DNA from: Neocallimastix lanati (nom. inval.)
Taxonomy: Eukaryota > Neocallimastigomycota > Neocallimastigomycetes > Neocallimastigales > Neocallimastigaceae
Assembly (NCBI GenBank): GCA_016946835.1
Contig: JACVTC010000210.1
Coordinates: 21,001 to 85,000 of the forward strand
Reading direction: 5' to 3'
Length of the DNA: 64,000 bases
In this document: positions 20,041 through 51,384 of the stretch, piece after piece
Layout of the letters: every line of letters starts with the position of its first letter
Position numbering within the stretch: the first letter of the stretch is position 1
Notes under the pieces: generated by a model
The model's input: the letters and a program-made list of their open reading frames with translations, nothing else
Database searches by the model: none
Told to the model about the DNA's origin: nothing
Translations under genes and position numbers: made by a program

Positions 20041-21234
20041 TTACATAATGAATTGTTCATTCATATTCATTGGATGTGAAGTAGAAAGTTGTGGAATTTG
20101 TTTAAAGTTCTTTTGTTTCATAATTTGTCTAATTTGTGTTAATAATTGTGTGTAACTAATATTTTGGTTTTGTTTTAAGACTGTAGAAAAAGCGTATGAC
20201 ATAGCACCAGTAGAAACATTATTAATCTTAGCATCAGCTGAGGTTTGATTATCTCTACAACCAGAGAATTGAATAACATCAGCATCATGTCTTCTCTTTT
20301 CAATGGTAGCTTGATTAGAAGTATTTGGTTTATTAAAGCTAATAGAACCATCGAAAAGACCAAGAAGAGAACTTGCAATAGCAGCTTGATCACCTTGAAT
20401 GAAACTACCAACAATACCGAAGGCCTTCTTGAAAATTTCCTTACGCATATCATTTTCAATAACCTCAACATTACCATCACATTGATAAGTGTATGGAAGA
20501 TCTAAAACAGTACCAGAGTGACATGAATCGAAAATAGCAGTTAATCTACAACCTTTTGGCAATGGTTTAACCAAGTTTTCATAAATAACATCATCAATAA
20601 TTTGACCATTTTTGGCATAATCTAATGGTAATATAGTTTCATCGAAGCCATCTATTTCATCAGCATGAGAATCCCTAGCTGTACCACCATGACCACTGTA
20701 GTGGAAGAATAAAGAATCATTTGGTTGAGCACCTTGAACAAGCCACTTCATAGCTTCAATAATATTATTGTAAGTAGGTTTCTTTTCTGGATCTTGTTGT
20801 TCATCAGTTAAGTATAAACAGTTTTGGAAACCAAATCTTCCACATACTAATTCTGAAATGTTTCTAACATCATTAATACAACCCTTAAGTTCAGCTTGAG
20901 TACCAGTATAATTAATACCGATGAAAAGAGCCTTCTTATTACCATTACAGGCAGATCTTTCAAATTGATCACCACCTCTTGAACGATAGAAACCATCAAG
21001 ATCACTATTCCATAAGTTTTGTTCTCTAATTTTTTGGTCAACTGCTCTACTGAAGACTTCATTTTGACTATCCCAAGTATTTATATTAACATTGTATCTT
21101 CTTCTATCACGGTCACTTTGCATACTACTAATAGATTCCATGCTAGTTTGAATAATGTTTTGAAGGTTTCCATTTTGAACTTGTTCTTGAATACTTTGGA
21201 AACCTTGTTGTAAAAATTGTTGGAAGTTGTTCAT
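20041..21234 (-). CDS. Type I metacaspase 1 (Gln-rich N-terminus)
   Basis: Predicted Ca2+-dependent cysteine peptidase of clan CD that cleaves after Arg/Lys; in fungi the class (yeast YCA1) acts in stress response, protein-aggregate clearance and cell death. The gene is intronless, 397 aa. Residues 1-45 are Gln-rich (MNNFQQFLQQGFQSIQEQVQ) and probably helical. The p20 core starts at KKALFIGINY (about 100), with catalytic His182 in HYSGHGG and Cys238 in FDSCHSGT. The acidic DEIDGFDETILP fits the Ca2+-binding loop. The p10-like end has FSGCRDNQTSADA, TGAMSYAF and STSHPMNMN. All catalytic elements are intact. First of six same-strand paralogues; the 2.7-kb gap to the next is gene-free. Function is inferred from family. 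Confidence 0.94.
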   Translation of the reverse strand: MNNFQQFLQQGFQSIQEQVQNGNLQNIIQTSMESISSMQSDRDRRRYNVNINTWDSQNEVFSRAVDQKIREQNLWNSDLDGFYRSRGGDQFERSACNGNKKALFIGINYTGTQAELKGCINDVRNISELVCGRFGFQNCLYLTDEQQDPEKKPTYNNIIEAMKWLVQGAQPNDSLFFHYSGHGGTARDSHADEIDGFDETILPLDYAKNGQIIDDVIYENLVKPLPKGCRLTAIFDSCHSGTVLDLPYTYQCDGNVEVIENDMRKEIFKKAFGIVGSFIQGDQAAIASSLLGLFDGSISFNKPNTSNQATIEKRRHDADVIQFSGCRDNQTSADAKINNVSTGAMSYAFSTVLKQNQNISYTQLLTQIRQIMKQKNFKQIPQLSTSHPMNMNEQFIM

Positions 21235-21951
21235 CTTTGTATATTAAATTACCTACTTATAATTATAACATAATAAATATATATAATAAATATTTAATAA
21301 TTATAATGTAAAATTAAAAGATATTTTATATATTTAATAAGAATAACAATAAAAATGTATGTTTTTTTGTTTCATAATATAAAAAATATGAACTGGCACA
21401 ACATTTAAATATAATTATCAATATATTTATTATTATAAAATCATTTTTATTTTATATATTATTTCTTTTATTTATTAATTAGTATATTTATTCTAAAAAT
21501 ACACATATTATTTTATTTTCCCTGTTATTCTTTAATTTAACCATTTTCATAAATAATAATTTTACTGTATTATTATCTCTAAATTTTTTTATTGTCTTTT
21601 CTTTTTATTAGTATTATTTCCATAAATATGATTACTCTAATTTTTATTTCATCAAATTTCTTATTTTAAATTTTATCTTATTTTTTTTTTTTTGTGTGTG
21701 TTCTAGAGTTCGCTTTGTCTCATTATTCTATCAAAAGTTCTCTTCTACTTTATAATATTATTGTGCTTTATTTATTTATTTTTTATTTTTAATACAATAT
21801 TAACCTTTTTTATGTCTTTCAAAAATAATTTCTTCTCGATAAGATATAAAATTGGATTATTCAAAACCTTTTATATATAAATAAACAAATAAATAAATAA
21901 AATAAAAGTTGAAAAGAGATAAATAAAAAGAATTGAACTGTTTTTTTATAT

Positions 21952-22018
<67 letters not shown>

Positions 22019-23735
22019 TATATTTATAATTATAATTACTTTAATAGTATAATTTTTATTATAAATAATATTGTTCAAATTTTATTAATAAAAACATATT
22101 TATTAATTCATTATTATAGAATAAAAATATTAATATATATATATTATAATTAAATATTAAATTTTTTAAATTAAATAAAAAAAAAGCTTAGTATCGATTT
22201 ATTTAATAATGTATTTATTCATTTAATATAATATGATAATTTATTTAACTTGTATTTATTCATTTATTTATTATTATAAGTTACATTTTCTTATTTCTAT
22301 TGACTTAGAAATTCAATTTTTTTCTCAACAAATAATAAAAAATTAGAATAACTTTAATAAATTTCAATATATTTTATAATATATATATTAGAAATATATT
22401 TGATATAATTTATTCTTATTATAAAAAATATATATTAGAATAGTAATAAATATTTATTTACTTATTAATTTATATAATATATATATATTATTTGTTATTT
22501 AATGAATCATAAACTTCATTATTAAACTATATATATTCTATTTTTTTAAAAAAAAAAAAATGAGCTTTAAAGCCTTAAATATATTGGTTCACAAAAGAGT
22601 TAAATAAATTATTTCAGTATATTATAATATATTTAAATTGTATATTAAATAGAAAAAAAATGGAAATGGACCGTTTAACTTTAAAAAATAAATAAATAAA
22701 TAAATAAAAATTTTAAAGTAAAAATAAAAACAATTATTTATTTTATCCATTTAATTATTAATATATAAAAATAATTTAATCAGCCATTTTTTTATATATA
22801 TTTTAGTGTAATTAAATATATTTAATCAACATAATAAATTTTCAAGATACAAAAAAAAAGGTTAAAATATAAATTTTAAGATAATATTTAATAAGTATAT
22901 TCTAATATAAATAATATTATTAATTTCAATTAATTTGCCATTCTTTGAATAAATAAATTATTAATAATTTCTATAAGTAAATAAAATAAAGAAAAAAAAT
23001 ATAAATAAAAGAAAAAAATAAAGTATTTTTATATATATCATTCACAATTAATTCTTATTATATAAATACTAAAAAATATATATGTAAAAATTAATAAATA
23101 CTAATAATAAATAAATAAATATTATTAATAATATTAACAATTAATAATAATAAAATATATATATTTAAATAGCAAATAAAATAAAATAAAACCATAATAT
23201 TTCATTTCCTTTATTTATGTTTTTTTGTATAAATTATATATAATTTAAAAAAAAAGTACATATATTACAAAATTGTCAATAATGATATTTCTTATTTATA
23301 AAAAAATAATGGTCCTCATAATTATAATAATACTAGAATTATTATTGATATCCTATTATCCTTAAATATGGAATAATTTATATTATTATTTATCAAACAA
23401 ATTAAAGAATGAAACTATATATTCATATATATTCAAAAAAAAAAACATTAAATATTTTTAAAATGCATGATTTATTCCTAATTATTAGTTTTTGATTTAT
23501 TTATTCATTCATTTACTTATTTATTTGTTTGTTTATTTATTTATTTGCTTGTTTGTTTGTTTGTTTGTTAATATACTTATTTTGTAGTTGTTCTTTTTAA
23601 ATACATTAAATAAATTCTATTATAATATAAAAATTTTTTACAATAATAATTTTGTACAATAAAGAATAAAAAAAAAAAAAAAAAGTGTATTGCTTTATGT
23701 ATTATGCTGAATAATTTTGATAATCATTAAATATA

Positions 23736-23766
<31 letters not shown>

Positions 23767-23980
23767 CACCATTATTCTTTGATTTTAAATTTTTTTATTA
23801 TAAAATTATTATTGTTATTTTTCTAATTTTTTTTTATTTATTTTAATTTAAAAAATATATATATAATGTGTGTATATAAATATAAATTTATATATTTTTA
23901 TATACTTATATATACTTCTTAGTATTGTTTGTTTTAGTTGTTATAAGTTCATTATTTTTTTTATTATTACCATTATTATT
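21235..23980. other. Intergenic spacer, metacaspases 1-2
   Basis: 2.7 kb of AT-rich DNA with a TTTA tetranucleotide array at about 21950-22018 and smaller TTTG/TTTA runs near 23515-23570. It must contain the metacaspase 1 promoter near 21235 and the 3' end of metacaspase 2. No coding signal. Confidence 0.6.
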
Positions 23981-25375
23981 TTACATTCTGAAAACTTCAT
24001 TCATATTCATTGGATGAGAAGTAGAAAGTTGTGGAATTTGTTTAAAGTTCTTTTGTTTCATAATTTTTCTAATTTCAGTTAATAATTGAGTATAGGTTAA
24101 ATTTTGATTTTGACTTAAAACGGTTATAAGAGCATAAGACATGGCACCAGTAGATACATTATTAATTTTAGCATCAGCTGAAGTTTGACTATCCATACAA
24201 CCAGAGAATTGAATAACATCAGCATCATGTCTTCTCTTATCAATAGCAGCTTGATTTGAGATGGAATTACCACCTCCTCCTAACTGAGCAAAGTTAATGG
24301 AACCATCGAAAAGACCAAGAAGTGAACTTGCAATAGCAGCTTGATCACCTTGAATGAAACTACCAACAAGACCAAGTGCTTTCTTGAAAATTTCTTTACG
24401 AACATCATTTTCAATAACCTCAACATTACCATCACATTGATAAGTGTAAGGAAGATCAAGAACAGTACCAGAGTGACATGAATCGAAAATAGCAGTTAAT
24501 CTACAACCTTGTGGTAATGGTTGAACTAAATTTTCATAAATAACATCATCTACAATTTGACCAGATTTTTCATAATCTAATGGTAAAATAGTTTCATCAA
24601 AGCCATCCACTTCATCACTTCCAGAATCTCTAGATGTACCACCATGACCACTATAGTGGAAGAATAAGGAATCACCTGACTTGGCACCTTGAACAAGCCA
24701 CTTCATACCTTCAATAATATTATCATAGGTTGGCTTCTTTTCTGGATCTTGTTGTTCATCGGTTAAGTATAAACAATTATGGAAACCATATTTCTGACAG
24801 ATTAGTTCAGAAACATTTCTGACATCATTAATACAACCCCTAAGTTCAGCTTTAGTACCAGTATAATTAATACCAATAAAAAGTGCCTTTTTATTACCAG
24901 TAAGAGTTGATCTAACACATTGGTCACCACCTCTTGAACGATAAAAACCATCAAGATCTCTTGACCATAAATTCTTTTCTTTAATTTTTTGTTCAACTAT
25001 TTTATGGAAGTTTTGATTACAGTTAATACCTTGACCATTCCACATATTCATATGAACATTAAATCTTCTCATTGGAATCATTCCTATACGACCGCCACGG
25101 CCCATCATACCACCGCGACCGCCCATCATACCGCCGCGACCACCCATCATTCCTCCACGGCCCATCATTCCTCCACGGCCCATCATACCACCTGGTCCCA
25201 TGACACCTGGTCCCATTCCAGGACCTCCTTCACTACGACCGCCCATCATACCTGGCATACCACCTCTACCTCCTGGCATTCCACCTCTACCTCCTGGCAT
25301 TCCACCTCTACCTCCTGGCATTCCACCTCTTCCTCCTGGCATACCGCCTCTTCCTCCTGACAATAAACCGAACAT
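23981..25375 (-). CDS. Type I metacaspase 2 (GGRGGMP-repeat prodomain)
   Basis: Intronless, 464 aa. Residues 7-41 are five perfect GGRGGMP heptads. Residues 42-100 continue as Met/Gly/Arg repeats (MMGRGG, MMGGRGG), giving a basic, disordered RGG-like prodomain that could bind RNA or phase-separate (inference). The peptidase follows: NKKALFIGINYTGTKAELRG from 161, His244 in HYSGHGG, Cys300 in FDSCHSGT, acidic DEVDGFDETILP, then FSGCMDSQTSADA. All key residues are present. An insert GGGGNSISNQ lies before the KRRHDADV segment. The first ATG is used because the repeats start directly after it. The C-terminal half is almost identical to metacaspase 3, including long stretches of identical DNA, while the prodomains differ. 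Confidence 0.94.
   Translation of the reverse strand: MFGLLSGGRGGMPGGRGGMPGGRGGMPGGRGGMPGGRGGMPGMMGGRSEGGPGMGPGVMGPGGMMGRGGMMGRGGMMGGRGGMMGGRGGMMGRGGRIGMIPMRRFNVHMNMWNGQGINCNQNFHKIVEQKIKEKNLWSRDLDGFYRSRGGDQCVRSTLTGNKKALFIGINYTGTKAELRGCINDVRNVSELICQKYGFHNCLYLTDEQQDPEKKPTYDNIIEGMKWLVQGAKSGDSLFFHYSGHGGTSRDSGSDEVDGFDETILPLDYEKSGQIVDDVIYENLVQPLPQGCRLTAIFDSCHSGTVLDLPYTYQCDGNVEVIENDVRKEIFKKALGLVGSFIQGDQAAIASSLLGLFDGSINFAQLGGGGNSISNQAAIDKRRHDADVIQFSGCMDSQTSADAKINNVSTGAMSYALITVLSQNQNLTYTQLLTEIRKIMKQKNFKQIPQLSTSHPMNMNEVFRM
25244..25360. repeat. Coding 21-bp minisatellite of metacaspase 2
   Basis: Tandem 21-bp units encode GGRGGMP on the minus strand, with only synonymous changes between units (for example CTACCTCCTGGCAT versus CTTCCTCCTGGCAT). 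Such arrays change copy number easily. Confidence 0.85.
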
Positions 25376-26548: not shown

Positions 26549-26643
<95 letters not shown>

Positions 26644-28577: not shown

Positions 28578-29927
28578 TTACATAAAGAACCTTTCATTCA
28601 TATTCATTGGATGAGAAGTAGAAAGTTGTGGAATTTGTTTAAAGTTCTTTTGTTTCATAATTTTTCTAATTTCAGTTAATAACTCAGTATATGAATATTC
28701 TCTATTTTGACTTAAAACAGTAATAAGAGCATAGGACATAGCACCAGTAGATACATTATTAATTTTAGCATCAGCTGAGGTTTGATTGTCCATACAACCA
28801 GAGAATTGAATAACATCAGCATCATGTCTTCTCTTTTTAATAGCAGTATTACTAGAAGTATTTGAATTATTAAAGTTGATAGAACCATCGAAAAGACCAA
28901 GAAGTGAACTAGCAATAGCAGCTTGATCACCTTGAATGAAACTACCAACAAGACCAAGTGCTTTCTTGAAAATTTCTTTACGAACATCATTTTCAATAAC
29001 CTCAACATTACCATCGCACTGATAAGTATATGGAAGATCAAGTACAGTACCAGAGTGACATGAATCAAAAACAGCTGTTAATCTACAACCTTGTGGTAAC
29101 GGTTGAACTAAATTATCATAAATTACATCATCAACAATTTGACCAGATTTTTCATAATCTAATGGTAAAATAGTTTCATCGAAACCATCCACTTCATCAC
29201 CATCAGAATCTCTGGCTGTACCACCATGACCACTGTAGTGGAAGAATAAAGAATCACCTGATTTGGCACCTTGAACAAGCCACTTCATACCTTCAATAAT
29301 ATTATTATAAGTTGGTTTCATATTTGGATCTTCTTGTTCATCCGTTAAATATAAACAATTATTGAAATGGTATTTTCTACAGAATAATTCAGAAACATTT
29401 CTGACATCATTAATACACCCTTTGAGTTCAGCTTTTGTACCTTTGTAGTTAATACCAATGAAAAGAGCCTTCTTATTACCATCACAGGTTGATCTTACAC
29501 ATCTATCACCACCTTTTTCAAGGTAGAACCTATTAAGATCTCTGGTCCATAAATTTTGTTCTCTTATTCTTCGATTAACTTCTCTATTGAAATTCTGTTG
29601 ATTGTTATCGCTGTCTATCTTAATATTATATCTTCTATTTCCTGGGCGTCCAAATCCTCCTTGACCACCATAACCACCTGGTCCCATACCTTGTCCTCCA
29701 AAACCTCCTGGTCCCATTCCTGGACCTCCAAAACCTCCTTGACCACCATAGCCTGGTCCTCCATAACCACCTGGTCCCATACCTTGTCCTCCAAAACCTC
29801 CTGGTCCCATTCCTGGACCTCCAAAACCTCCTGGTCCTCCATAGCCTGGACCTCCAAAACCTCCTGGTCCCATTCCTGGTCCTCCGTAACCTCTTTGACC
29901 ATAGCCACCTGGACCTCCCATATACAT
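28578..29927 (-). CDS. Type I metacaspase 3 (GGPG-repeat prodomain)
   Basis: Intronless, 449 aa. Residues 1-96 are Gly/Pro/Tyr/Phe/Met repeats such as GGPGMGPGGFGGQGMGPGGY, resembling the proline/glycine/tyrosine-rich prodomains of fungal metacaspases and likely prone to self-assembly (inference). The core starts NRRYNIKID (about 97), with KKALFIGINYKGTKAELKG from 152, His234 in HYSGHGG, Cys290 in FDSCHSGT, acidic DEVDGFDETILP and FSGCMDNQTSADA. All catalytic residues are present. Over 104 bp (28912-29015) its DNA is identical to metacaspase 2 (24330-24433), third codon positions included, so gene conversion or recent duplication is likely. Confidence 0.94.
   Translation of the reverse strand: MYMGGPGGYGQRGYGGPGMGPGGFGGPGYGGPGGFGGPGMGPGGFGGQGMGPGGYGGPGYGGQGGFGGPGMGPGGFGGQGMGPGGYGGQGGFGRPGNRRYNIKIDSDNNQQNFNREVNRRIREQNLWTRDLNRFYLEKGGDRCVRSTCDGNKKALFIGINYKGTKAELKGCINDVRNVSELFCRKYHFNNCLYLTDEQEDPNMKPTYNNIIEGMKWLVQGAKSGDSLFFHYSGHGGTARDSDGDEVDGFDETILPLDYEKSGQIVDDVIYDNLVQPLPQGCRLTAVFDSCHSGTVLDLPYTYQCDGNVEVIENDVRKEIFKKALGLVGSFIQGDQAAIASSLLGLFDGSINFNNSNTSSNTAIKKRRHDADVIQFSGCMDNQTSADAKINNVSTGAMSYALITVLSQNREYSYTELLTEIRKIMKQKNFKQIPQLSTSHPMNMNERFFM
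29635..29920. repeat. Coding GGPG minisatellite of metacaspase 3
   Basis: Imperfect 12- to 30-bp units encode GGPG(M/Y) and GPGGF/GPGGY blocks on the minus strand. A larger block encoding GFGGPGMGPGGFGGQGMGPG occurs twice, showing internal duplication. Confidence 0.8.
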
Positions 29928-31680: not shown

Positions 31681-31727
<47 letters not shown>

Positions 31728-34440: not shown

Positions 34441-34805
34441 TATGGAGACTACTTAACTCTTCCTCGAACTATTTTTTTTTTTTTATTTTTTTATTTTTAT
34501 AACCGCAATTATTTCAAACTTTAATTTTTATTTATTTATTTATTAATTACTTGAAATTTTTTTAATATAAAAAACACTCCATTAATAAAAAAAAAAAAAA
34601 AAAAAAAAAAATTTATTCAAATGAATATAATAATATTTAAAATAGTAATATAAAATAAAAAATAATATTAAAAATAAAGTGTATAAATAAATTCTGAAAA
34701 AAGTTCATATGCAACGAACTTCACCTCCATATTACTTATTCCGGATTAGGGTTCGAAATGACTATCTGAAAGAAATTATGGTCTTCTCCTTCAGGGGCTA
34801 GCCTG

Positions 34806-35654
34806 TTATACTGCGTTTTCAACGTTGACGCTCCTGGTTTGTTTGAACTTATATTTTCGAAATAGTAACCCTTGCCGAGTACTAGCCCCAGGTATAATTT
34901 CTGTTAAGAGAGCTGAAGATCGCATCAAGAATGGCGTTTTTGAATAATCACCAGAAATAATTTGGTTTTTAAACAAAATATCCCATAAAGCATGGATCCA
35001 GAAGTTACGATTAAGGATGTGACCTGAGGGATCAGAAGCTAGATCTTTATAATATTCAGCCCATCTATCCAATTGTTTAGTAGGAGAGATAATATCTTGA
35101 CCAAATTTAGATTTTATGCAAGTAGGGGAGGTAGATGAATACGATGGTTTAGCCATTTTTTTTAAACATCTCCAACCATTTTTGAAATCTTTATTCAAAA
35201 AATAATTACCAATTTTTACTATATTAGCCTTAAATCTAGCAGAACGAAATTTGCTCTTTGTTTTTTTTTTGATTAATTTGCAAAGTTTTTCATATTTATT
35301 AAATTGTTCAAGGTAATTATCAACATTTTCACAGTTAAAGTAAGGCTTAATAATTCGAAATGCAATGTGTTTTTCATGAGACAGTTTTTTAATGTAATAA
35401 GGGCAATGAAAAGCAGAGCCCTTTAAATCTGTTGGAATGAAAGCCTTAATATTCTTCCCGATATTATTTGCTGTATTGATAAATTTTTCTACCATTTCAT
35501 CAGCCGTGAGCGAATTGTAATGAGAATCGAGGTCATTTGCTAAGATTGAAAAATAATTATGTGATAAAATATCTGAATTTTTTGTTTTACAAATATGTGT
35601 AGACCATTTAGAAACTTTAGCAGGCCTTATAAAGCCATCGGAGAGAACTTTGTT
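34806..35654 (-). pseudogene. LINE linker fused to C-terminus (copy X1; RT deleted)
   Basis: Continues in frame from the endonuclease across a TGA at 35655-35657. The sequence reads through VEKFINTANNIGKNIKAFIP and WAEYYKDLASDPSGH, the region normally between endonuclease and reverse transcriptase. It then passes directly into LFKNQIISGDYSKTPFLM and RSVNVENAV, which match the extreme C-terminus of copy X2 (LFKCQMKSGAYSDTPFLV, KSVNAEE). The RT and zinc-finger regions are missing, so this is an internally deleted, non-autonomous copy. The junction is near 34980. Confidence 0.75.
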
Positions 35655-36389
35655 TCAAGAAAGTATAATAGGTTTATGATCAGAAATACCATAAAATGAA
35701 GTGCAAACCGAGGTTTTATTAAAATGAGCTGTCAAAGCCTCATTATAGATGACATGGTCAATGCAAAATGATCTAGTACCTTTGGCATAAGTAAATTTAT
35801 TACCATATAAGGGAGCAATATACCAATTAGGAAAATTATTTGAAATGTATGTTATGATCTTCTTTAATGACATGTTAAAATCACCAACTAGGACAGCAGG
35901 AACGTTTTTTCTTTTGTGAAAACGTAACCATTGAGAAAGTTCATCAAAAGCAGCTAGTCTTGCTTCCTTCCATTTGCTTTGAGGAAAGTAGATATTACCA
36001 ATAGTACATTTTTGATTCCAGTAAGAAGTAATATTTACTGAAATGATATACTTGTATAAAAACGGTTCTTGGAAGAAAGAGAACGAAGAATGAACACCAA
36101 TAAAGAGTCCTCTCATACCAGGGATTTTAGGATTAGCTTTAAGAAAAACTGAGTTGTAATATGGAATTAATGGTGATGAAACATCTTTTGGAAGATATTT
36201 ACTTTTTCCAGTTTCTTGTAAACAGATACATATAGGTTTGAAAATAGAGTTGAGGTATAAAATACTATCACGCTTTTCAGTATTCCAACCGTTAATATTC
36301 CAGCTAATACAGAGATTAAAGAAAGAAGAATTTGAATTTAGATGGCTAGAGAATAAAATCTTTCGCCATAGGATTAAGTTCAACATCAA
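35655..36389 (-). pseudogene. LINE AP-type endonuclease domain (copy X1)
   Basis: Apurinic-like endonuclease (EEP superfamily) that nicks target DNA to prime reverse transcription. Seen in order: ISWNINGW, LQETGK (metal-binding Glu), GLFIGVHS, VLVGDFNMS (catalytic Asp/Asn), CIDHVIYN and the terminal SDHKP. All hallmark residues look intact. It ends at a TGA where other context suggests Trp (S-TGA-NKVLS), after which homologous coding continues. It overlaps the upstream frame by 44 bp. Confidence 0.85.
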
Positions 36390-36753
36390 TGTTATTAGAT
36401 TTTCTTGACTTATTCATTTGTTTAAGTTTATTACACAAGGTCCAGGTAATTTTAGCTGTTTCAGGAATTTTATCTCTTAAGAAATCTAAAACATTGAAAA
36501 ATTTGCGATCATTTTTGTGTTTATTAACCCTAATAATGAAGTATGAGCAGTACCTTGGAGAAAAAAGTTTTTTAACATATGGAATAATTTCATTGTAGTT
36601 AGGGATCTTACTTATAACTTGAGCCATTAGATTACTAGGGGACCAAGAATTAAGGTTATGGATAAAGATAAGGCTATAATTGTTCATATGATTACCGAAG
36701 CAGTAGAAACCACGATGGAAGGGAGTATTATTAACTGAGCTAGAAGCATCCAT
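36346..36753 (-). pseudogene. LINE N-terminal region (copy X1)
   Basis: 135-codon frame upstream of the endonuclease, ending NNIDVELNPMAKDFIL and overlapping the endonuclease frame at 36346-36389. This could be a separate ORF1-like protein or the true N-terminus of ORF2 broken by a frameshift. A segment with FSPRYCSYFIIRVNKHKN looks like a small alpha/beta fold of the kind found in LINE ORF1 C-termini (weak inference). Copy X1 appears to retain its 5' end. Confidence 0.55.
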
Positions 36754-37260
36754 GTTTAGAGTTTGATGATAACAGAACTGACTTAATTTCTATTTATTGT
36801 GAATTGATTATAAGGATTGAATACCAAAGAATTATATATAAAATATTAACATTTAAGTTTACTGAATATAAAAGTTAATTGTTTCACATGAATTGAATTT
36901 CCTAAGATATATTAAAAAAAACAATATTAGTGGAAAAATTATTTATTCAATAAAATACAATGTAAAATAATATATTTATTTAAAGTAAAAATATTTTAAA
37001 AGGATATGAAAATTAAAAACCTAAAGTAAAAATTTATATAAAAATATAAAGTAAAATATATAAAGATAAAAAAAAATATATATATATATATATATAAATA
37101 TATATAGAATAGAAAAATTTTAGAAATATAAGAGAAAAAATAAAAACAATATTATTAGTAGTATAGTGTAAAAAATTCTTTTGATTGAAAAATTGATTTA
37201 AAAAACTACAGTTATGATTTATATAAAAAGATAAAGATTGCATTAAAAATTGAAAAGTAA
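36754..37260. other. Spacer between LINE copies
   Basis: AT-rich, possibly the 5' leader of copy X1 near 36754-36850, then AT dinucleotides near 37077-37105. No gene. Confidence 0.5.
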
Positions 37261-38452
37261 TTTAGATTTTATTATTATACTAATTGCTGATTCCCTCAGA
37301 AACCACACACCTTAGGTTCTATCATTGGGATCAATGAGAGAGGAATAGATTTATTAATAAGAAATCGAAAGTACAAATTTAACTTGACATTTAAATTACT
37401 GTTTAATTTGGATTGTATAGGTTTCAGTGATAAAGATTTATCAAAAGGAATACCAAGATAAGTATAGTTGTCAGTTTTAGGTAATTTGTTACTACCAATA
37501 AAGAAAGATGGATCTTCATAATTTATCAGTTTAACAAAGTTAATCGGTTTTACAACAAGAGTAGCACACTTATTAATTCCAAAAGTCATTTCATTTTTAA
37601 TAGCCCATTCATGAACTTTTTTCAAAATTTTCTTAAAAGCTTGTTTAGATGGAGTAACTAAAACAATACCATCCGCAAAAAGTCCACCACAACAATACTG
37701 AGAATCTAAATATACACCATACTTATCACAATTATCCAGCATATCATTAATGAACAAATTGAATAAAATAGGAGATAGAGGGCATCCTTGTCTAACACCA
37801 CGATTAATCGAAAATTCTTCTGAGAGATTACCATTAAAAAAAAGCACGAGCTTTAGAGGATAGATAAAGATTCTTTAAAAATAGATGGCATTTATCTCTA
37901 ATTCCTAAGTTATATAATTTGGTCAAAATATTAAAGAGAGGTACTGAATCATAAGCTTTTTTTAAGATCGAGAAAAGCAAGATAAGTAAATTTTCCTTGA
38001 AATTTTCTTCTTTGACATATCTCTCTAATTGAAATATATAAACTTATACATTCTTCTTTATTTCTAAATCCAAATTGTTCAGGTCTAACAAATTTATGTT
38101 CAAGGGCATATTTATCAATTCTATTAGTAACAATCTTTGAAATAATTTTTAAGCCAACATTAATAAGAGATATACCACGATAATTATTACAATTCGAAAG
38201 ATCTCCTTTTTTTGGAATTGATATTATAGAAGCCGAATTTCATTCTTCAGGGAAATCACCATCCCAAATTTTGTTAAATAATGAAAGTAAACATTTAGCA
38301 CAATCAGGGTCGTCATCAACTGAAGAATCAATTTGATTATCGGATAAATTAGATTTACTAAAGAAGGCTTTAAAAAATTCAATCGGAATACCATCGGGTC
38401 CAGGAGCTTTATTATTTTTCATATCAAGCACAGTGTTTTGAATTTCTTCCAT
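37261..38452 (-). pseudogene. LINE reverse transcriptase fragment
   Basis: The minus strand encodes an RT of the non-LTR class. It starts MKNNKAPGPDGIPIEFFK and runs, after a TGA at 38240-38242 in the usual Trp position, through NSASIISIPKKGDLSNCNNY and RGISLINVGLKIIS. Next comes FLDLKKAYDSVP (broken by a 7-A run at 37957-37963), then RQGCPLSPILFNLFIND and the active-site box. The box reads LFADGIVLV: the second Asp of FADD is Gly (37668-37670), which should abolish activity. A further frameshift lies near the T/A run at about 37840. The C-terminal zinc finger is absent. Confidence 0.85.
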
Positions 38453-38471
38453 AGTAAAAAAAAAAAAAAGA

Positions 38472-38513
<42 letters not shown>

Positions 38514-38733
38514 TAATATAATAAAATAAAAATAAAGGAGAAAGTAAATTCCCTTTAAATAGTATATAAAAAAATATTGGTGTTGAATATATGAAAACTT
38601 GAAATATATAATTGTTCTTGATGATTTAATAGATTTAGATTTTGTAAATAATCTTCTTAAATGGAATAGGAATTTTGGAATTTGAAAGAAATTTACTAAA
38701 AGAAAAGAAAGCTTTAGTAACTGTTAAGTAATT

Positions 38734-38742
<9 letters not shown>
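38453..38742. other. Spacer with A and T runs
   Basis: A run at 38457-38469 and T run near 38479-38505, then AT-rich DNA without coding signal, between two LINE fragments. Confidence 0.5.
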
Positions 38743-38777
<35 letters not shown>

Positions 38778-39545
38778 GGCAGCAAACTTGTTTCATCTTT
38801 ATTAATTAAATATTTGATAAAATACATGTAATAAAATAATAAAAAAAAAAAAGATAAAAAAATAAACAAAAAATAAAACACAAAATAAAAATAAAATAAT
38901 GGTATAATATATTCTAGTTTCATTTAATTAATATTTGTAAGACTTCACAAGGGCATTATTATACTGAAGTATAATAATTAACTTTGACTTCGCAATGTTA
39001 ATCATAATTTTAAGATACAAAATTATGATCTTCATTGGTTGCGCTAGCCCTGCTGGCCTGTCTTACTGTTTCTTCAGCATTGACGCTCTTGGTAGTAGTA
39101 GTACGATTCGATTTGAACCTATTGAACAAAGACCATTGCTGGCCAATAGCAATAGGTATAATCGATTGGAGAAGTGCCGCAGTAACCACTAAGAACGGAG
39201 TATCAGAATAAGCACCTGATTTCATCTGGCACTTAAATAGATCCTTCCATTCCCTTGTACTGTTATTAATACTTCGACCTCCAAGAAGGAAATTAAACAC
39301 TTTTTCACACACACTAGAATCAATATACACATTATTTTCAATACTATTACTAACATCACTAAAAATACTATTACTAATATTATTATTACTATTATAACTA
39401 TTACTATTATTACTATTACTATTATCATTATTACTATTAACAATATCATTTGTTAGGTTGCCACGGTAAAAAGCATTATATAAAAATAAAATTTTATCAT
39501 TAATGTTAAGTAATTTAATATACCTTATTAATGTATTTTTTCATT
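38743..39545 (-). pseudogene. LINE 3' end, copy X2
   Basis: The 32-nt T run at 38743-38774 is the poly-A tail read on the minus strand, followed by a 3' UTR to about 39010. The coding part (39010 to about 39545, no start codon) reads LIRYIKLLNINDKILFLYNA, FYRGNLTND and an Asn/Ser-rich stretch. It continues VFNFLLGGRSINN, FKCQMKSGAYSDTPFLV, IIPIAIG and TKSVNAEETVRQASRAS. It is 5'-truncated and begins where copy Y2 ends, so Y2 sits directly at its 5' boundary. Confidence 0.75.
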
Positions 39546-39548
39546 TTA

Positions 39549-39551
<3 letters not shown>

Positions 39552-39583
<32 letters not shown>

Positions 39584-40330
39584 CTAGGAATAAACTTTAT
39601 TTAATAATATTTTTTTTTTTTTAAAAAAATACATGAAGTTTAAATACATGAAATTTTTTTTTTTTTTATTAATATTAAAAAACTACGTTATGAGATTCGA
39701 GGACGAAAAGGCCTCTAACTCTTCCCATTCATCGAAGATAACTCCATGTGGATGAAAATTATCATTCGAATCTGTATCAGAATTTCTTCTTTGCCTTATC
39801 GTTACGACGTCGACGCTCTTGACAACGGTAGGTCTAACACTATACAAATCGATCATGGTGTAAAAATCACCAATCACAATAGGCATAACGTTAGTAAGGA
39901 ATTCCGCAAGCCCTACAAAATATGAAATCGGGAAAGAAGGCTCGTTCGAAGGTGATTGAAAAATATTATTAATATATCGCCTTCTTTCCCCCGAGCCGAT
40001 CTTTAAGATTTCAAATACTGCATTTCCGCCAAGAAGGAGACACAGCACGTAAAAATTTGAAAGATAGAAGGTAGGATTACTATTATAAAGAAATTTTGAT
40101 ACTTCCCCTCGTACTACTAAACTGGCACATTAATTGATACCAAATTGCATTTCATTATTTCTAGTACATTTACTGGCAAACTTTAACAATTTCTTAAGTT
40201 GGGATCTTGTTGGAGCACATATTACAATGTCATCTGCAAAAAGACCTCCACAACAACGTTTTTTACCAATAGTAACGCCATATTATAAAAGTAATTTCTT
40301 AAACAATAAGACAAATTTCAATTTGTAAAA
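39552..40330 (-). pseudogene. LINE copy Y2: RT piece fused to C-terminus
   Basis: A T run of about 29 (from 39552) and AGACTAGGAATAAA mark the 3' end. On the minus strand the 5' part encodes CCGGLFADDIVICAPTRSQL, the RT active site with intact FADD, then NEMQFGIN, a stop, and CASLVVRGEV. It then joins almost directly to YVLCLLLGGNAVFE and the C-terminal domain IVIGDFYTMIDLY, VVKSVDVVTIRQRR (stop at 39683). The zinc finger between RT and C-terminus is deleted, the same type of internal deletion as in X1 but at other points. Confidence 0.75.
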
Positions 40331-40371
40331 ATACAAAAAAAAAAAAAAAAAAAAAAAATGAATAATAATAA

Positions 40372-40414
<43 letters not shown>

Positions 40415-40940: not shown

Positions 40941-42143
40941 TTATAAAATGAATTGACTGTTCATGTTCATTGGATGAGATGAAGAAAGTTGTGGAATTTG
41001 AGAGAAACGCTTTTCCTTCATAATTTGTCTGATTTGAGTTAATAATTGAGAGTAAGATAAGTTTTGGTTTTGATTTAAAACAGTAATAAGAGCGTAAGAC
41101 ATAGCACCAGTAGCAACATTGTTTATACTAGCATCAGCAGAAGTTTGGTTATCTCTACAACCAGATAATTGAATAACATCAGCATCATGTTGTCTCTTTT
41201 CAATTATAGCTTGTTGATTAGTATTATTAGCATGAGCGCTAAGAGATCCATCAAAAATACTCATAAGAGCTTCAGCAATACCAGCTGGGTTACCTTGAAT
41301 AAGACTGCCAACAACGTTAATAGCCTTCTTGAAAATTTCCTTACGAACATCATTTTCAATAACTTCAACGTTACCATCACATTGATAAGTGTATGGAAGA
41401 TCCATAACTGTACCAGAGTGGCAAGAATCAAAAACAGCTGTTAATCTACAACCCTTTGGTAATGGCTTAACTAAATTTGCATAAATAACATCATCAACAA
41501 TTTGACCAGAACTAGTGTAATCTAATGGTAAAATAGTTTCATCGAAACCATCAATTTCATCAGTTTCAGAATCCTTAGCTGTACCACCGTGACCACTGTA
41601 ATGGAAGAATAAAGAATCTCCTGGCTTAGCACCATCAGTAAGCCATCTCATGGCATTAATAATGTTATCATAAGTTGGCTTCTTACTTTGATCTTGTTGA
41701 TCATCAGTTAAATATAAACAGTTTTGGAAGCCAAATCTTTGACAAACTAATTGAGAAACGTTTTTAACATCATTAATACAACCTCTAAGTTCAGCATTAG
41801 TACCAAAGTAGTTAATACCAATGAAAAGAGCCTTTCTGTTACCATTACACTCGGAAAGAGTGAAACCATTACCATCTCTATCATTGTAAAATTTTTCAGT
41901 ATCTTGGGTCCATAAATTTTGCTTCTTAATTTGTTCATGAATGCTTCTGGTAAATTCAGATGCACTGTTAGCGGTATTGATCTTAACTCTGTATCTCTTG
42001 TTTTGACCTTGAATGTTTTGGATGGTTTGAACACCTTGTTGGATTACATTACCAATACCACCATTTTCTTCAACTTTTTGTTGAACTTGTTGAATACCTT
42101 GTTGAATACCTTGCTTTAATGCTTGATTCTTTAAAAAGTTCAT
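40941..42143 (-). CDS. Type I metacaspase 4 (Gln-rich helical N-terminus)
   Basis: Intronless, 400 aa from the ATG at 42143; an in-frame upstream ATG at 42164 would add MILFIEK but lies in AT-rich leader, and paralogue starts (MNNF, MNFI) favour 42143. Residues 1-48 are Gln-rich and helical-looking (QGIQQGIQQVQQKVEE, VIQQGVQTIQNIQGQ), like metacaspase 1. The core KALFIGINYFGTNAELRG follows, with His185 in HYSGHGG and Cys241 in FDSCHSGT, acidic DEIDGFDETILP and LSGCRDNQTSADA. The C-terminus is SSSHPMNMNSQFIL. Complete peptidase; separated from metacaspase 3 by the LINE cluster. Confidence 0.93.
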   Translation of the reverse strand: MNFLKNQALKQGIQQGIQQVQQKVEENGGIGNVIQQGVQTIQNIQGQNKRYRVKINTANSASEFTRSIHEQIKKQNLWTQDTEKFYNDRDGNGFTLSECNGNRKALFIGINYFGTNAELRGCINDVKNVSQLVCQRFGFQNCLYLTDDQQDQSKKPTYDNIINAMRWLTDGAKPGDSLFFHYSGHGGTAKDSETDEIDGFDETILPLDYTSSGQIVDDVIYANLVKPLPKGCRLTAVFDSCHSGTVMDLPYTYQCDGNVEVIENDVRKEIFKKAINVVGSLIQGNPAGIAEALMSIFDGSLSAHANNTNQQAIIEKRQHDADVIQLSGCRDNQTSADASINNVATGAMSYALITVLNQNQNLSYSQLLTQIRQIMKEKRFSQIPQLSSSHPMNMNSQFIL

Positions 42144-42476: not shown

Positions 42477-42510
<34 letters not shown>

Positions 42511-45040: not shown

Positions 45041-45078
<38 letters not shown>

Positions 45079-45308: not shown

Positions 45309-46454
45309 CTACATAATAAATTTTTCATTCATATTCATTGGGTGACTTGTCGAAAGTTGAGGAATTTGAGTAAAGTTATTTTTAATCATAATACTTCTAA
45401 TTTCTGTTAATAATTCAGTATAAGAAAAGTCTTTATTTTGACTTAATACTGAAATAAGGGCATAGGACATAGCACCAGTGGCCATATTATTAATTTTAGC
45501 ATCTGCACTGGTTTGATTATCTTTGCAACCAGAAAATTGAATAACTTCAGCTTCATGTCTTCTTTTCTTAATAATTTCTTCTTGATTAGTATTAGAATTG
45601 GTAGTAGTACTTGTAGAAAAATTACCATCAAAAATACTACAAATAGCGGTGGTAAGACTATCTGTATTTCCTATTAAAAGATTACCAATGATTTCAAGAG
45701 CTCTTCTAAAGATATCTTTTCGTACATCATTATCAATAGCTTCAATATTTCCATCACATTGATAAGTAAATGGAAGGTCCATAACAGTACCAGAGTGACA
45801 TGAATCAAATACAGCTGTTAATCGACAACCCTTTGGTAAAGGTTCAACTAAATTCTCATATATGACATCATCTACAATTTGACCATATTTAGCATAATCC
45901 ACTGGTAAAATAGTTTCATCAAATCCATCAAGTTCATCAGAATTACTATTATTTGAATCACCAGCGGTACCACCATGACCACTATAGTGGAAGAATAATG
46001 AATCCCCAGCTTTTGCATTATTTACAAGCCATTTCATACCATTAATAATATTATTATAAGTTGGTTTCATTTTTTCATCAGGATTTTCATCAGTTAAATA
46101 CAGACAATTCTTAAATCCATATTTTTTACAAACTAATTCTGAAACATTCTTAACATCATTAATACAACCACTTAATTGAGCACTTGTACCATAATAATTA
46201 ATTCCTACAAAAAGAGCTTTCTTATTACCAGTGCAAGTTGAAGATTCATAAGTCTCCCCATTTCTATCTTTGAAAAAAGTTTCTAAATCAGTTGTCCACA
46301 AATTTTGCTTTTTAATTTGTTCATTAATTAAATCTTTTTTCGACTTTTTATTGCTATTTATATCATTAAATTTAATATTAAACCTCTTACTTGAGAAGTC
46401 TTTAAATTGTTCTTTTAAAGTATCTTTAAATACTTTGCTATTAATGAAATTCAT
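45309..46454 (-). CDS. Type I metacaspase 5 (short prodomain)
   Basis: Intronless, 381 aa, the shortest of the six. The N-terminus (MNFINSKVFKDTLKEQFKDF, then DINSNKKSKKD) is short, basic and lacks Gly- or Gln-repeats. Core: KKALFVGINYYGTSAQLSG, His160 in HYSGHGG, Cys219 in FDSCHSGT. The loop after SGHGG carries an Asn/Ser insertion (GDSNNSNSDELDGFDETILP) not seen in the others. FSGCKDNQTSADA and STSHPMNMNEKFIM end the protein. All catalytic residues are intact. A Thr/Asn/Ser-rich linker (STSTTTNSNTNQ) precedes the p10-like part. Confidence 0.93.
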   Translation of the reverse strand: MNFINSKVFKDTLKEQFKDFSSKRFNIKFNDINSNKKSKKDLINEQIKKQNLWTTDLETFFKDRNGETYESSTCTGNKKALFVGINYYGTSAQLSGCINDVKNVSELVCKKYGFKNCLYLTDENPDEKMKPTYNNIINGMKWLVNNAKAGDSLFFHYSGHGGTAGDSNNSNSDELDGFDETILPVDYAKYGQIVDDVIYENLVEPLPKGCRLTAVFDSCHSGTVMDLPFTYQCDGNIEAIDNDVRKDIFRRALEIIGNLLIGNTDSLTTAICSIFDGNFSTSTTTNSNTNQEEIIKKRRHEAEVIQFSGCKDNQTSADAKINNMATGAMSYALISVLSQNKDFSYTELLTEIRSIMIKNNFTQIPQLSTSHPMNMNEKFIM

Positions 46455-46649
46455 TTTGTTATATTTTATTGTTCTTTTTTTTTTTTTTTTTTTTTTTAAA
46501 CTTGTTTATATATATATATTTATCAAAAATTAATAATAAAAATTCTTTTTATTTTTTTTTAATAAGAAAAAAATATGATTTTTATCTTTTTTTTTTATCA
46601 ATTATAACACAAGAAATACTCTAATCTTATAGGTTTTTTTTATATAATT

Positions 46650-46684
<35 letters not shown>

Positions 46685-49600
46685 TAATTTTAGGACAAAT
46701 TTGACAGCAAATTAAATTAACCTTTTTAAATTAATTTCTTAAATCCAAATAATTAAAAATTTAAAATGAAATAATTTATTCATTAAAAATAATTTTTAAA
46801 AATTTGAAAGCTAAATTTTTATTAAAATCATTATTTGTATAATTAATTTTTACATTTAACAACTTTGAATTAAGAAATTTTATCATTTAATTAAAGAAAA
46901 AATAATAATAATAATAATAATAAAATTAAAATTTTATTATATATATATATATTTTTTTTTAAAAAAAAAATAATTTCAAAACAAGAATACTTCAATTTTA
47001 TAGGACTTTCCTGCATATAATTAAATCAATTCATGAATAATTGATATTTATTTTTTATTCATTTTTTTTAAAAAAAAAATTATCCTTAAATCTAAATAAT
47101 TTATTAATTAAAATAAAATATATAATAATGTGTCATAATAATTGAATATATATATATATATTATTTTAACAAATTTAAATTTAACTCTCTCATATTTCTT
47201 TTTAATAAAAAATTTTAAAATTTTTTATCTTTAATAATTTTAAAATTTAAGTTTTAATTTTTTTTTTTTTTTTTTTACTTCGTGTCTCTATGTTTCAAAT
47301 TATTTCTATAAATTTATTTATTTATTTTTATTTTTTTTTTTTTTTTTAGATTATAAAAGTAATCCATGTAGTTCAACACATTTCATCTAATTTTTTTTAT
47401 TATATTTTATGAATATAAATTTTGAATGATACACATAGTTTTATGATTAAATTTTTAAAAATAAATTTTTGTATGATACACTCAAGAAATTTAAATCAAA
47501 TTTAAAGAAAAATTATAAAATAAAAAAAAAAAATTTTTTTTTTCTCTTTTTGTCTCATCAATCCTTAAATTCGTTAATTATATAATAATTATAAAATTTT
47601 TAAAAAATTTATTGGCAAATTCATTTTTTTATAATAATAAAAATAATATAAATAAATATTAAAATTTTATATAATTAAAAAAAAATAATTTTAATCATTA
47701 AACAAATTTATAAATTTATAAATATTATAGATATATTTTTTATTTTTTTTTAAAAAAAATTATTTTTTAAATGAATCTTTTCTATAAGAATATAAAATAT
47801 TTTTTTTTCTGTTTATTATTCATCTATTATAAATATTAAAAAAATTTAATATTTTATGTTAATGTTGAAAGTAAATTATTCATTCGTTCATTTATTATAT
47901 TTATATATATTGATTTATGTATTATATTTATCTCTATTATATTTATCTTTATTTATATATCTTTATTATATTTATCTTTATTTATATATTTTATTTATTT
48001 ATGCATTTATTTATTATATTTATTTATGTATTTATATTAACTTATTAATTATATATATATTTTATATACTTTGATTTTAAATATTTATTAATTATTTATT
48101 ATTTATTATTTATTATTTATTATTTATTATTTATTATTTATTATTTATTATTTATTATTTATTATTTATTATCTATTATTTATTATCTATTATTTATTAT
48201 TTATTATTTATTATTTATTTATTATTTATTATTTATTATTTATTATTTATTATTTATTATTTATTATTTATTATCTATTATCTATTTATTATTTATTATT
48301 TATTATTTATTATTTATTATTTATTATTTATTATTTATTATTTATTATTTATTATTTATTATTTATTATTTATTATTTATTATTATTAAAAATTTATTAT
48401 TATTCTATTAATCTATTTATTATTTATTATTATTTAATTTAAAAAAAAAAAAAAAAAACTACAAATTAAAATAATTATTTATTTATTTTTATTTCCTTTT
48501 TTATAACTTTTTACCTTAATTTAATAAAAAAAAAAAAAAATCTTTACTAAATTAGTAAAAAAATAAAAATAAATAAATAAATAAAAATTAAAAAATATAA
48601 TATAAAAAATAAATAATAAATAAATAATAATAATAAATAAATAAATTTTATTTTTATTGCTTGATTGTTTTATTATTGTTCTTATTAAAAAATAAAATAA
48701 AATAAAACCGTTTTATTAGATATTATTATAATATTAATATTTTCATCATATATAAATCGAAAATATCCCTGAGAAAATAAAATTCAAAAGTATAAAAAAA
48801 AAAAAAAAGGTAAAATTTTTTTCTTTTCTTTCGTTCATTTCAAAAAAATTTTTTTTTTTTTTTATTATTATTTTATTTTATTTATTTATTTTTATTTTTA
48901 TTTTATTTTTATATTTATGGGTTTTAATATGTTTTTTTTTGTTTATTTTTTTGTTTATTTTTTGTTTATTTATTTTTATTTTTATTTTTTTTATAAAAAT
49001 ATTTCCTATTAATAAAAATTTTATATTATTTTCATATTCTTTTTTTTAAACTTTTTAATATATTATATATAGCTTTACGATTCTAACGTTGTTATATACA
49101 ATATATAAAAATATATAAATGATTTAATTATTTAAGATATTATAAAAAATAATAAAAAAAATTGAAAGAAAAAAAAAAATAATAAATAAAAATAATAAAG
49201 TAAACACTTTTTTATTTTTATCATTTTATTTTATTTTATTTTTATTATTTTTTTTTTCTTTTCCTTTCCTATTTTTACTTCGAAATGTAATTATATTATT
49301 ATTTAAACTCTGTTTACTATTAACAATTTTTTTTATTTATTTTTTTTTTTCTGAATATGATTTTGACATTATTGTATATAATATTTTTGATTTTTATTTT
49401 TTATTGTTTATTTGTTTGATTATAAAATTATTTATTATTGTGTTTATTTACTAATCTTTGATTTTCTCGATTTATTTGGTTGGAGATTCATATAAAAACT
49501 AATATATTATTTAATGTATTTTTAATTTTGTTGATTTTGTTTTGTAATAATAAAAAAAAATTTTTTTTTATATTACTATATATTAAAAATATATAAATAG

Positions 49601-50100
49601 ATATCTAAATAGTACATTTTTTTTTTAAAAAAAAAAAAAAAAAGAATTAGTTAAAATTTAAAATGTCAATCAAAAGAAAAAAAATATATATATATATAAT
49701 ATAAAAATACAATAACAAATAAATAAAAAAATAAATAAATTATTTTTTTTAATTATTTATAATTGTTTTTTTTTTTTTTTTTCTTTTCAGACAAACTTAA
49801 TTCTAAAATTATATGATAAGAATTTTTTTTTCTTTTTTGAAATTTTAACTCTTTTTTTTTTTAATAATTTATTATAATATTTCTTTTTTTTTTTAAAAAA
49901 AAAAAATAGATATATTATCTATTATTATTTTGTCATATTATATAACAAATTAAAAAAAATTGTAAACATTGATATAAAACATAAATATTTCAATTATATT
50001 ATGTTATAAAATTAAAAAAAAATTACGAAAGAAACTTATTAATATAAAATAAAATCTAAATATATATAACTTAATCTTTTTTTTTTTTTTTTTAATTTTT
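46455..50100. other. Intergenic spacer, metacaspases 5-6
   Basis: 3.6 kb AT-rich with many A/T runs and a heptanucleotide array at about 48083-48385 (separate entry). The frame at 47856-48074 is repeat-derived. No gene seen. Confidence 0.6.
48083..48385. repeat. (TTATTTA)n heptanucleotide array
   Basis: About 300 bp of 7-bp units TTATTTA with occasional TTATCTA variants. It is the reverse complement of the unit at 44.0 kb, so metacaspase 5 is bracketed by inverted heptamer arrays. Confidence 0.9.
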
Positions 50101-51384
50101 TTAAATAGAAAAGGTTTCATTCATATTAATTGGACGACTTGTGGAAATTTGTGGAATTTGAGTGAATTTCTTTTCTCTCATAACATCTCTAACTCCAGTA
50201 ATTAATTCGTTATAAGTATATTCTTTATCTTGTGATAATAAAGTAATGATAGCATAGGACATAGCTCCAGTAGAAACATTTCCAATTTTTGCATCAGCAC
50301 TAGTTTGGTTATCCTTACAACCTGATAATTGAATAACTTCACCGGTACGTTGTCTCTTTTGAACAACTTCTTTATCAGTACCTCTCTTAGCTACTTGACG
50401 AAGAGAACCATTGAAAATTCCACTAAGAGAATTTCTAATCTTGGTTGGATTACCTTCAATAAGACTATTAACAACTTCGTTTGTCTTCTTAAATACTTCT
50501 CTACGTACATCATTTTCAACAACTTGTACATTTTCACCATATTGATAGGTGTATGGAAGATCCATGATAGTACCAGAATGGCAAGAATCAAAAATTGCAG
50601 TTAATCTACAACCTTGAGGTAATGGTTCAACTAAATTTTCACGAATAACATCATCAACAATTTGTCCATTAGTAAGATAATCACATGGTAAAATAGATTC
50701 ATCAAATCCATCAAGTTCATCACCATCCTTATCTCTAGTTGTACCACCATGACCACTGAAGTGGAAGAACAAGGAATCACCTGCCTTTGCATCTTGAACA
50801 AGCCATTTCATAGCATTTATAATATTATCATAAGTTGGTTTCTTCTTTTCATCAGCTTGATCATCAGTTAAAATAACAGCACTAGTAAAACCAAATCTCT
50901 TTGCAATTAATTGTGAAATATTATGAACATCATTAATACAACCCTTAAGAGGTGACTTTCCGCCAATATAATTAATACCTACGTAAAGAGCCTTTCTATT
51001 ACCTTTACAATCTGATCTTTTAAAGTTATCACCATCTCTATCATCATAGAATTTCTTAACGTCTGGTGACCACATTTTTTTATTTATTTGTTCATTAAGA
51101 TGTTGTGTAATTTTAGAAGCTTTACCTTCTCCATTTACCTTAACATTATATCTTCTTGGTGGTCTAGTGGTGGTGGTAGTAGTAGTGGTGGTGGTTGGTT
51201 GAGTTTGAACAACAGTTTGTGGTTGGGTTTGAGTATGAACAATTGTTGGTTTCTTTATAACAGTAATTTTTTTTCCTCCAGTAGTACCATCAGCAGGAGC
51301 AGTAGTTGTAGTAGTAGTAGTAGTTGTAATAATTTTCTTATTTCCAACTTGTTTAACTTCTTGTTTAACAACCTTTTCAACCAT
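50101..51384 (-). CDS. Type I metacaspase 6 (Thr-rich N-terminus, divergent)
   Basis: Intronless, 427 aa. The N-terminus begins MVEKVVKQEVKQVGNKKIIT and has two poly-Thr tracts (about residues 20-28 and 64-73) around a Lys/Val/Gln-rich segment, then RPPRRYNVKVNG. Core: RKALYVGINYIGGKSPLKG, His212 in HFSGHGG (Phe instead of Tyr before SGHGG) and Cys268 in FDSCHSGT. The acidic loop is DELDGFDESILPCDY, and YTYQYGENVQVV replaces the YTYQCDGNVEVI seen in the others. LSGCKDNQTSADA and STSRPINMNETFSI end it. It is the most divergent member but keeps the catalytic residues, so it is probably active. It lies at the far end of the array. Confidence 0.93.
   Translation of the reverse strand: MVEKVVKQEVKQVGNKKIITTTTTTTTTAPADGTTGGKKITVIKKPTIVHTQTQPQTVVQTQPTTTTTTTTTTRPPRRYNVKVNGEGKASKITQHLNEQINKKMWSPDVKKFYDDRDGDNFKRSDCKGNRKALYVGINYIGGKSPLKGCINDVHNISQLIAKRFGFTSAVILTDDQADEKKKPTYDNIINAMKWLVQDAKAGDSLFFHFSGHGGTTRDKDGDELDGFDESILPCDYLTNGQIVDDVIRENLVEPLPQGCRLTAIFDSCHSGTIMDLPYTYQYGENVQVVENDVRREVFKKTNEVVNSLIEGNPTKIRNSLSGIFNGSLRQVAKRGTDKEVVQKRQRTGEVIQLSGCKDNQTSADAKIGNVSTGAMSYAIITLLSQDKEYTYNELITGVRDVMREKKFTQIPQISTSRPINMNETFSI

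Follow-up and report, generated by a model that had tools for sequence, protein, structure and literature searches.

The window analysed here is 64,000 nucleotides of Neocallimastix lanati DNA (positions 21001–85000 of contig JACVTC010000210.1, hereafter C125, in a genome assembly of 199 Mb in 762 contigs), and it contains a row of six predicted type I metacaspase genes. We consider it probable (about 0.6) that the row is a tandem-duplicated array in which one protease core is combined with several evolving N-terminal address tags. As the initial annotation had described, the six genes are intact and lie on the same strand: all are uninterrupted, intronless open reading frames of 381–464 residues on the minus strand, and an in-frame stop is found 2–18 codons 5' of every ATG. 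The genes and their prodomains (tails) are located in the window as follows.

20041..21234, minus strand: gene 1, predicted type I metacaspase, 397 residues (open reading frame and Pfam); twin c346_1 on contig C346
21103..21234, minus strand: gene 1 prodomain, 44 residues, Gln-rich, 36% Gln+Asn
23981..25375, minus strand: gene 2, predicted type I metacaspase, 464 residues (open reading frame and Pfam); twin c346_2; distal-core conversion signal with gene 3
25070..25375, minus strand: gene 2 prodomain, 102 residues, RGG-box-like
28578..29927, minus strand: gene 3, predicted type I metacaspase, 449 residues (open reading frame and Pfam); C346 twin (c346_3) interrupted by a 5000-base N run
29637..29927, minus strand: gene 3 prodomain, 97 residues, Gly/Pro/Phe/Tyr repeats
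40941..42143, minus strand: gene 4, predicted type I metacaspase, 400 residues (open reading frame and Pfam); twin c346_4
42000..42143, minus strand: gene 4 prodomain, 48 residues, Gln-rich, 42% Gln+Asn
45309..46454, minus strand: gene 5, predicted type I metacaspase, 381 residues (open reading frame and Pfam); C346 twin not found
46389..46454, minus strand: gene 5 prodomain, 22 residues
50101..51384, minus strand: gene 6, predicted type I metacaspase, 427 residues (open reading frame and Pfam); C346 twin not found; core groups with the single gene of contig C643
51157..51384, minus strand: gene 6 prodomain, 76 residues, 27 of them Thr

The family assignment is based on the protease core. The Pfam family Peptidase_C14 (PF00656) was found in all six proteins over nearly the full profile (E 4.5e-39 to 6.3e-44). 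The best PDB sequence matches of genes 1 and 6 were the yeast and Candida glabrata metacaspases, with yeast Mca1 as the closest solved structure by sequence (E 2.6e-81 and 2.9e-80, respectively), and both proteins align with Mca1 through the linker with no large gaps, as for the short linker of type I. The AlphaFold model of gene 1, calculated from a six-row alignment, had a mean predicted local distance difference test score (pLDDT) of 66, and its best Foldseek matches were the C. glabrata (E 1.7e-25) and yeast (E 6.5e-25) metacaspases. Key residues were counted in the 13 complete intronless copies of the genome, the fourteenth, c346_3, being interrupted by the gap. The p20 part precedes the p10 part, and the catalytic His182 and Cys238 (gene 1 numbering) are kept in all 13 copies. 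The two aspartates of the S1 site are kept in 13 of 13 as well, and so are the calcium-site residues Asp198, Asp214, and Asp245 of gene 1. The latter correspond to Asp236, Asp252, and Asp283, counted from the catalytic Cys within the gap-free part of the Mca1 alignment; the calcium-site aspartates are named so in a published account (PMC12914765). The His/Cys dyad and acidic loop noted in the initial annotation are intact in all six genes of the array, which are, judged from their sequences, catalytically competent-looking fungal type I metacaspases.

The first four genes of the row occur twice in the genome. The region at 399.9–434.7 kb of contig C346 matches C125 collinearly, including the left flank with a proteasome gene, genes 1–4, the stretch upstream of gene 4, GAR1, and a gene of 612 residues, so that genes 1–4 with matching tail types are present twice, in the same order and with the same flanking genes. 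Synonymous divergence was estimated by the Nei–Gojobori method with the Jukes–Cantor correction, which is rough in such AT-rich DNA. Over whole genes, the divergence between the twins was 0.41 (gene 1), 0.56 (gene 2), 0.66 (gene 3, partial), and 0.45 (gene 4). Similar values were obtained for the flanking genes: 0.51 for GAR1 and 0.505 for the 612-residue gene; the proteasome gene gave 0.47, from only 124 codons at 60% identity with a poor exon alignment. The 612-residue gene (L023:4851-6689, right of the window) adjoins both arrays, its two copies are 88% identical across 608 codons, and it matched no Pfam family at E 0.01. One piece of the left flank was an outlier (0.81, 51% identity). The double presence of the region might suggest that a single gene is represented by several alleles or by assembly duplicates. 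However, core synonymous divergence is 0.33–0.93 among the six genes and about 0.4–0.66 between the twins, and most non-coding DNA of the two regions has no blastn match in the other. Such synonymous divergence is too high for alleles or assembly duplicates, and this explanation is rejected as scarcely credible; the initial annotation had named assembly duplicates among the conditions that would undo the idea of a functional array.

No counterpart of genes 5 and 6 was found on C346, where the corresponding interval is about 3.6 kb. Because the core synonymous divergence of genes 5 and 6 from genes 1–4 (0.62–0.93) exceeds that of the core twins (0.40–0.47), loss of the two genes on C346 appears likelier than their gain on C125, with a later move into C125 as the less likely course.

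The core is under purifying selection, with ratios of nonsynonymous to synonymous divergence (dN/dS) between the twins of 0.09 (gene 1), 0.18 (gene 2), and 0.15 (gene 4). Between pairs of the six proteins, the core is 59% (genes 5 and 6) to 89% (genes 2 and 3) identical; the initial description of the protease domain as nearly constant fits genes 1–3 but not genes 5 and 6. The same annotation had called the N-terminal segments unrelated, which applies to the outermost 22–102 residues, where the six genes truly differ, but not to the following ca. 52 residues ahead of the core, which align in all six and diverge faster than the core (31–60% identity). The N-termini of genes 1 and 4 are similar in appearance, and their composition is Gln-rich, as had been noted. 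In the tails of genes 2, 3, 5, and 6, Gln and Asn make up 0–14%. Clustered RGG motifs occur in gene 2 (10 in the first 130 residues) and its twin c346_2 (eight), and the gene 3 tail contains seven GGPG and ten G[FY]GG motifs.

These tails may have no specific address at all. The array could be a redundant dosage amplification, in which the genes are tandem duplicates and the low-complexity tails drift freely; the tails and the segment behind them do diverge faster than the core, and repeat numbers shift between twins, the gene 2 tail having 102 residues on C125 and 63 on C346. On the other hand, the tail types, including the RGG and GGPG types, are kept between twins despite the synonymous divergence of 0.4–0.66, and in genes 1 and 4 the tails have changed less per nonsynonymous than per synonymous site (dN 0.095 and dS 0.30 over only 44 codons in gene 1; dN 0.105 and dS 0.41 over only 48 codons in gene 4). 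We regard dosage amplification as a serious but doubtful explanation.

Each gene probably encodes a calcium-activated protease that cuts after Arg or Lys and processes itself at the basic linker, as suggested by family membership together with the intact residues. If the tails are address tags, they would decide where the enzyme gathers. This role is suggested by the retention of tail types between twins and by the yeast prodomain, which, according to a review (PMC9820594), is needed to clear insoluble aggregates. The tails of genes 1 and 4 might direct the enzyme to a helical oligomer or a membrane, that of gene 2 to RNA or an RGG condensate, and that of gene 3 to a Gly/aromatic assembly. One activity could thus be deployed at several sites, in stress proteostasis or in lysis phases of the life cycle.

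The helical character of two of the tails also bears on the proposal of the initial annotation that the prodomains act as assembly triggers. According to a prion-type version of this proposal, Gln/Asn-rich prodomains seed protease-activating aggregates and serve as a cell-death device. The Gln+Asn contents of genes 1 and 4 (36% and 42%) are in line with it, and PMC12914765 describes Pro, Gln, and Asn as abundant in the prodomain of the yeast enzyme. However, it concerns only two of the six tails, and in both of them a helix is amphipathic: the first helix of gene 1 has a hydrophobic moment of 0.54 (0.19 on average after shuffling, with 1 of 5000 shuffles reaching the observed value), and the second predicted helix of gene 4 one of 0.48 (27 of 5000). 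Since part of each Gln-rich tail is an amphipathic helix, the prion-like reading is probably not the natural one; the tails look helical, an aggregation role is not supported, and we consider the prion-type cell-death device improbable. The cell-death or proteostasis module of the initial annotation is likewise not supported.

Several observations weigh against address tags. Tail behaviour was judged from composition and helical moment alone, and the latter gives no significant amphipathicity for the second helix of gene 1 (1958 of 5000 shuffles as high), the first predicted helix of gene 4 (moment 0.29; 696 of 5000), or the tail of gene 5 (1884 of 5000). The N-terminal helices of the gene 1 model have a pLDDT of about 40 or lower, and the model of gene 4 is poor (mean pLDDT 44.7) and unusable for fold comparison. 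The gene 2 tail shows no clean constraint between twins (dS 1.2, dN 0.19, from a repeat-ridden alignment). In addition, the 300 bases of upstream DNA could not be aligned between any two array genes (45 pairs, of which only the gene 3 twins exceed a z of 4); co-regulation of the array is therefore unsupported.

The relationship among genes 2, 3, and their twins changes along the sequence. Before the core, gene 2 has 37 variable sites in common with its twin and nine with gene 3; within the core, the numbers are 49 and 72. The best break lies at the PTYNNII stretch and was reached in none of 1000 shuffles. In two consecutive 30-codon blocks, the identity of gene 2 to gene 3 (0.94 and 0.92) exceeds that to its twin (0.87 and 0.78); over the rest of the distal core, gene 2 is closer to gene 3, equally close to both, or slightly closer to the twin. 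In the core tree, gene 2 pairs with gene 3 (96/95). These results suggest that gene conversion took place between the two neighbours in the distal core and spared the tail. Ten triplets were tested for such breaks, which can be mimicked by rate differences along the gene. Weaker support for a break was obtained for genes 1 and 3 (reached in 2 of 1000 shuffles), c346_1 and c346_2 (30), and genes 1 and 2 (40), and the remaining six triplets gave no evidence of conversion (84–599 of 1000). A neighbour beats the twin within the core only for genes 2 and 3. For c346_2 and c346_1 there was a tie (59 to 59); c346_2 itself may therefore have exchanged sequence, and either gene of the pair may have been the donor. 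The gene 1/2 quartet gave 53 sites for the twin, 20 for the neighbour, and eight for the cross pairing. The quartet with c346_3 extends just 28 columns beyond the best break, taking in little of the exchange, and gave no core excess (twin 9, neighbour 5, cross 3); the quartets with gene 4 showed no neighbour excess (6 to 10 and 11 to 14).

Because the gene 2 core is nearer to gene 3 and its pre-core part nearer to the twin, exchange between neighbours probably contributes to the similarity of the proteases, at least for genes 2 and 3, with the tails escaping and purifying selection explaining the rest. Such exchange of core sequence also agrees with dosage amplification. A stricter form of the address-tag reading would hold that conversion homogenises the core and stops before the tail, which would leave the address free to evolve apart from the enzyme, the tails of the paralogues (amphipathic helix, RGG box, Gly/aromatic repeats, Thr-rich) leading to different compartments or condensates. 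We put this forward tentatively and think it unlikely in full.

In the whole genome, PF00656 gave 19 matches at 17 places, i.e. at least 17 metacaspase loci, in agreement with the earlier impression of unusually many copies. Besides the six genes of the array and four on C346, there are single intronless genes on contigs C666, C91, C3, and C643 and multi-frame genes on C110, C135, and C143. Those on C110 and C135 resemble ordinary genes with introns, and that on C143 may be either intron-bearing or decayed. A core tree was calculated from 13 intronless genes, C110, C135, two yeast enzymes, and two bacterial ones; C143 and the bacterial locus L025, a part match, were left out. The 13 intronless genes group together (94/98, not starred), apart from C110 and C135 and from the yeast and Candida rows. 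Within this clade, only the nodes of genes 2 and 3 and of gene 6 with C643 (96/94) are starred; that of gene 1 with c346_1 (93/91) is not. The six-gene array is part of an intronless lineage separate from the two intron-bearing metacaspases.

Intronless genes beside intron-bearing cousins might point to horizontal transfer of a metacaspase from bacteria, and prokaryotic metacaspases do exist. Nevertheless, the best PDB matches are the yeast and Candida enzymes, one contig scan gave three bacterial loci at 32–53% identity, and the two bacterial loci in the tree form a long-branched pair that stands away from the fungal sequences. The lineage thus appears nearer to fungal than to bacterial enzymes, as far as two yeast and two bacterial outgroup rows can tell, and on the contig scan and the core tree we reject a bacterial origin as very unlikely. 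One scan of the viral contigs revealed no relative of gene 1 (nine stretches matched a pattern).

Linked metacaspase genes occur elsewhere, as the tandem MCA2/MCA3 pair of Trypanosoma brucei, in which no more than two linked copies are known, and the tandem AtMC4–7 cluster of Arabidopsis. Arabidopsis metacaspases 4 and 9 (6w8r, 8a53) have the same fold as the array genes but are type II enzymes with no prodomain and a long linker (PMC9820594). T. brucei MCA2 (4af8, 4afp, 4afr) resembles the array in the core fold and dyad region, and differs in a Pro-rich N-terminus spanning the active site (PMC9820594). The closest systems are S. cerevisiae Mca1/Yca1 (4f6o, 4f6p) and C. glabrata metacaspase-1 (7qp0, 7qp1), which share the full core, the dyad, the calcium aspartates, and the basic linker; a low-complexity N-terminus, as in the array genes, is also described for yeast Mca1 (PMC9820594, PMC12914765). 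According to PMC9820594, yeast has one gene and Magnaporthe and Podospora have two each, whereas here six stand in tandem, with a common pre-core segment and different tails, among the 17 or more loci. The literature consulted credits four fungi with one or two genes, far fewer than here, and in the limited open-access literature no account of metacaspases in anaerobic fungi was found. Several low-complexity prodomains on one core are an extension of a known family rather than the undescribed system first suggested. The purpose of the prodomain is itself unsettled, the review giving different roles in yeast and trypanosome (PMC9820594). Similar cores joined to different natural tails, and this in two diverged versions of the region, offer ready-made chimaeras for testing whether the tail sets location, activation, or substrate.

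The divergence of the two regions may reflect a wider doubling. The proteasome profile was found at 23 places in the genome, and a single eukaryotic set comprises 14 subunits. Sixteen of the 23 places, which do not comprise the C346 twin of the window's own proteasome gene, were picked as eight apparent pairs by profile coverage, and synonymous divergence was 0.28–0.50 in all eight. CCT chaperonin genes also occur in apparent pairs, some of them collinear (a proteasome and CCT pair on C24/C457; two CCT pairs on C479/C749), and two CCT genes are seemingly single (C223 and C577). Since housekeeping genes occur in diverged apparent pairs and the array twins (about 0.4–0.66) are similarly diverged to the eight chosen proteasome pairs, a genome-wide doubling or hybrid origin is suggested. 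The large proteome of Neocallimastix sp. JGI-2020a (27,675; PMC11878562) would fit a doubling. For N. cameroonii, PMC12341934 states "no evidence of specific polyploidy", and an old, diverged doubling need not appear as polyploidy.

In the same genome, 28 of 68 matches to the RPB2 profile, a domain of the second-largest RNA polymerase subunit, are nearly equal in score (E 4e-52 to 1e-49) and in the profile positions covered (57–63 to 372–373), many of them in open frames of 1191–1203 residues on many contigs, e.g. C110 (217 kb, also with a metacaspase). The pattern is not cellular and perhaps reflects many copies of an element of giant-virus or linear-plasmid type.

The window is very AT-rich (GC content 3–30% per 2 kb). 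A tblastn search with 13 metacaspase proteins (E 1e-3) found no seventh copy or remnant in C125:11001-95000, of which 2500 bases right of the window are N. The other features are as follows.

788..2425, plus strand: left flank, proteasome subunit gene with introns, probably of alpha type by a sequence motif; also adjoins the C346 array
34500..40150 (limits approximate), minus strand: retroelement pieces between genes 3 and 4 (Pfam of frames)
61767..62163, plus strand: right flank, GAR1-like exons (first Pfam-scanned, second read by eye); also adjoins the C346 array

The stretch between genes 3 and 4 contains an endonuclease frame (35655–36386) and a reverse transcriptase frame (37299–37874). 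Such retroelement pieces, together with frames that have no Pfam match, occupy 34806–40129 and 63257–63949 of the window, and frames near 39.7 and 63.3 kb have a motif around SVDVV in common. Positions 38759–39173 match C346:421065-421472 at 97% identity over 415 columns, far above the rest of the two regions, perhaps because a mobile element has recently been copied into both. Two pieces of SWEET-type (MtN3_slv) sugar transporter genes lie close together on the minus strand at 3080–3562 and 7019–7510 of the window.

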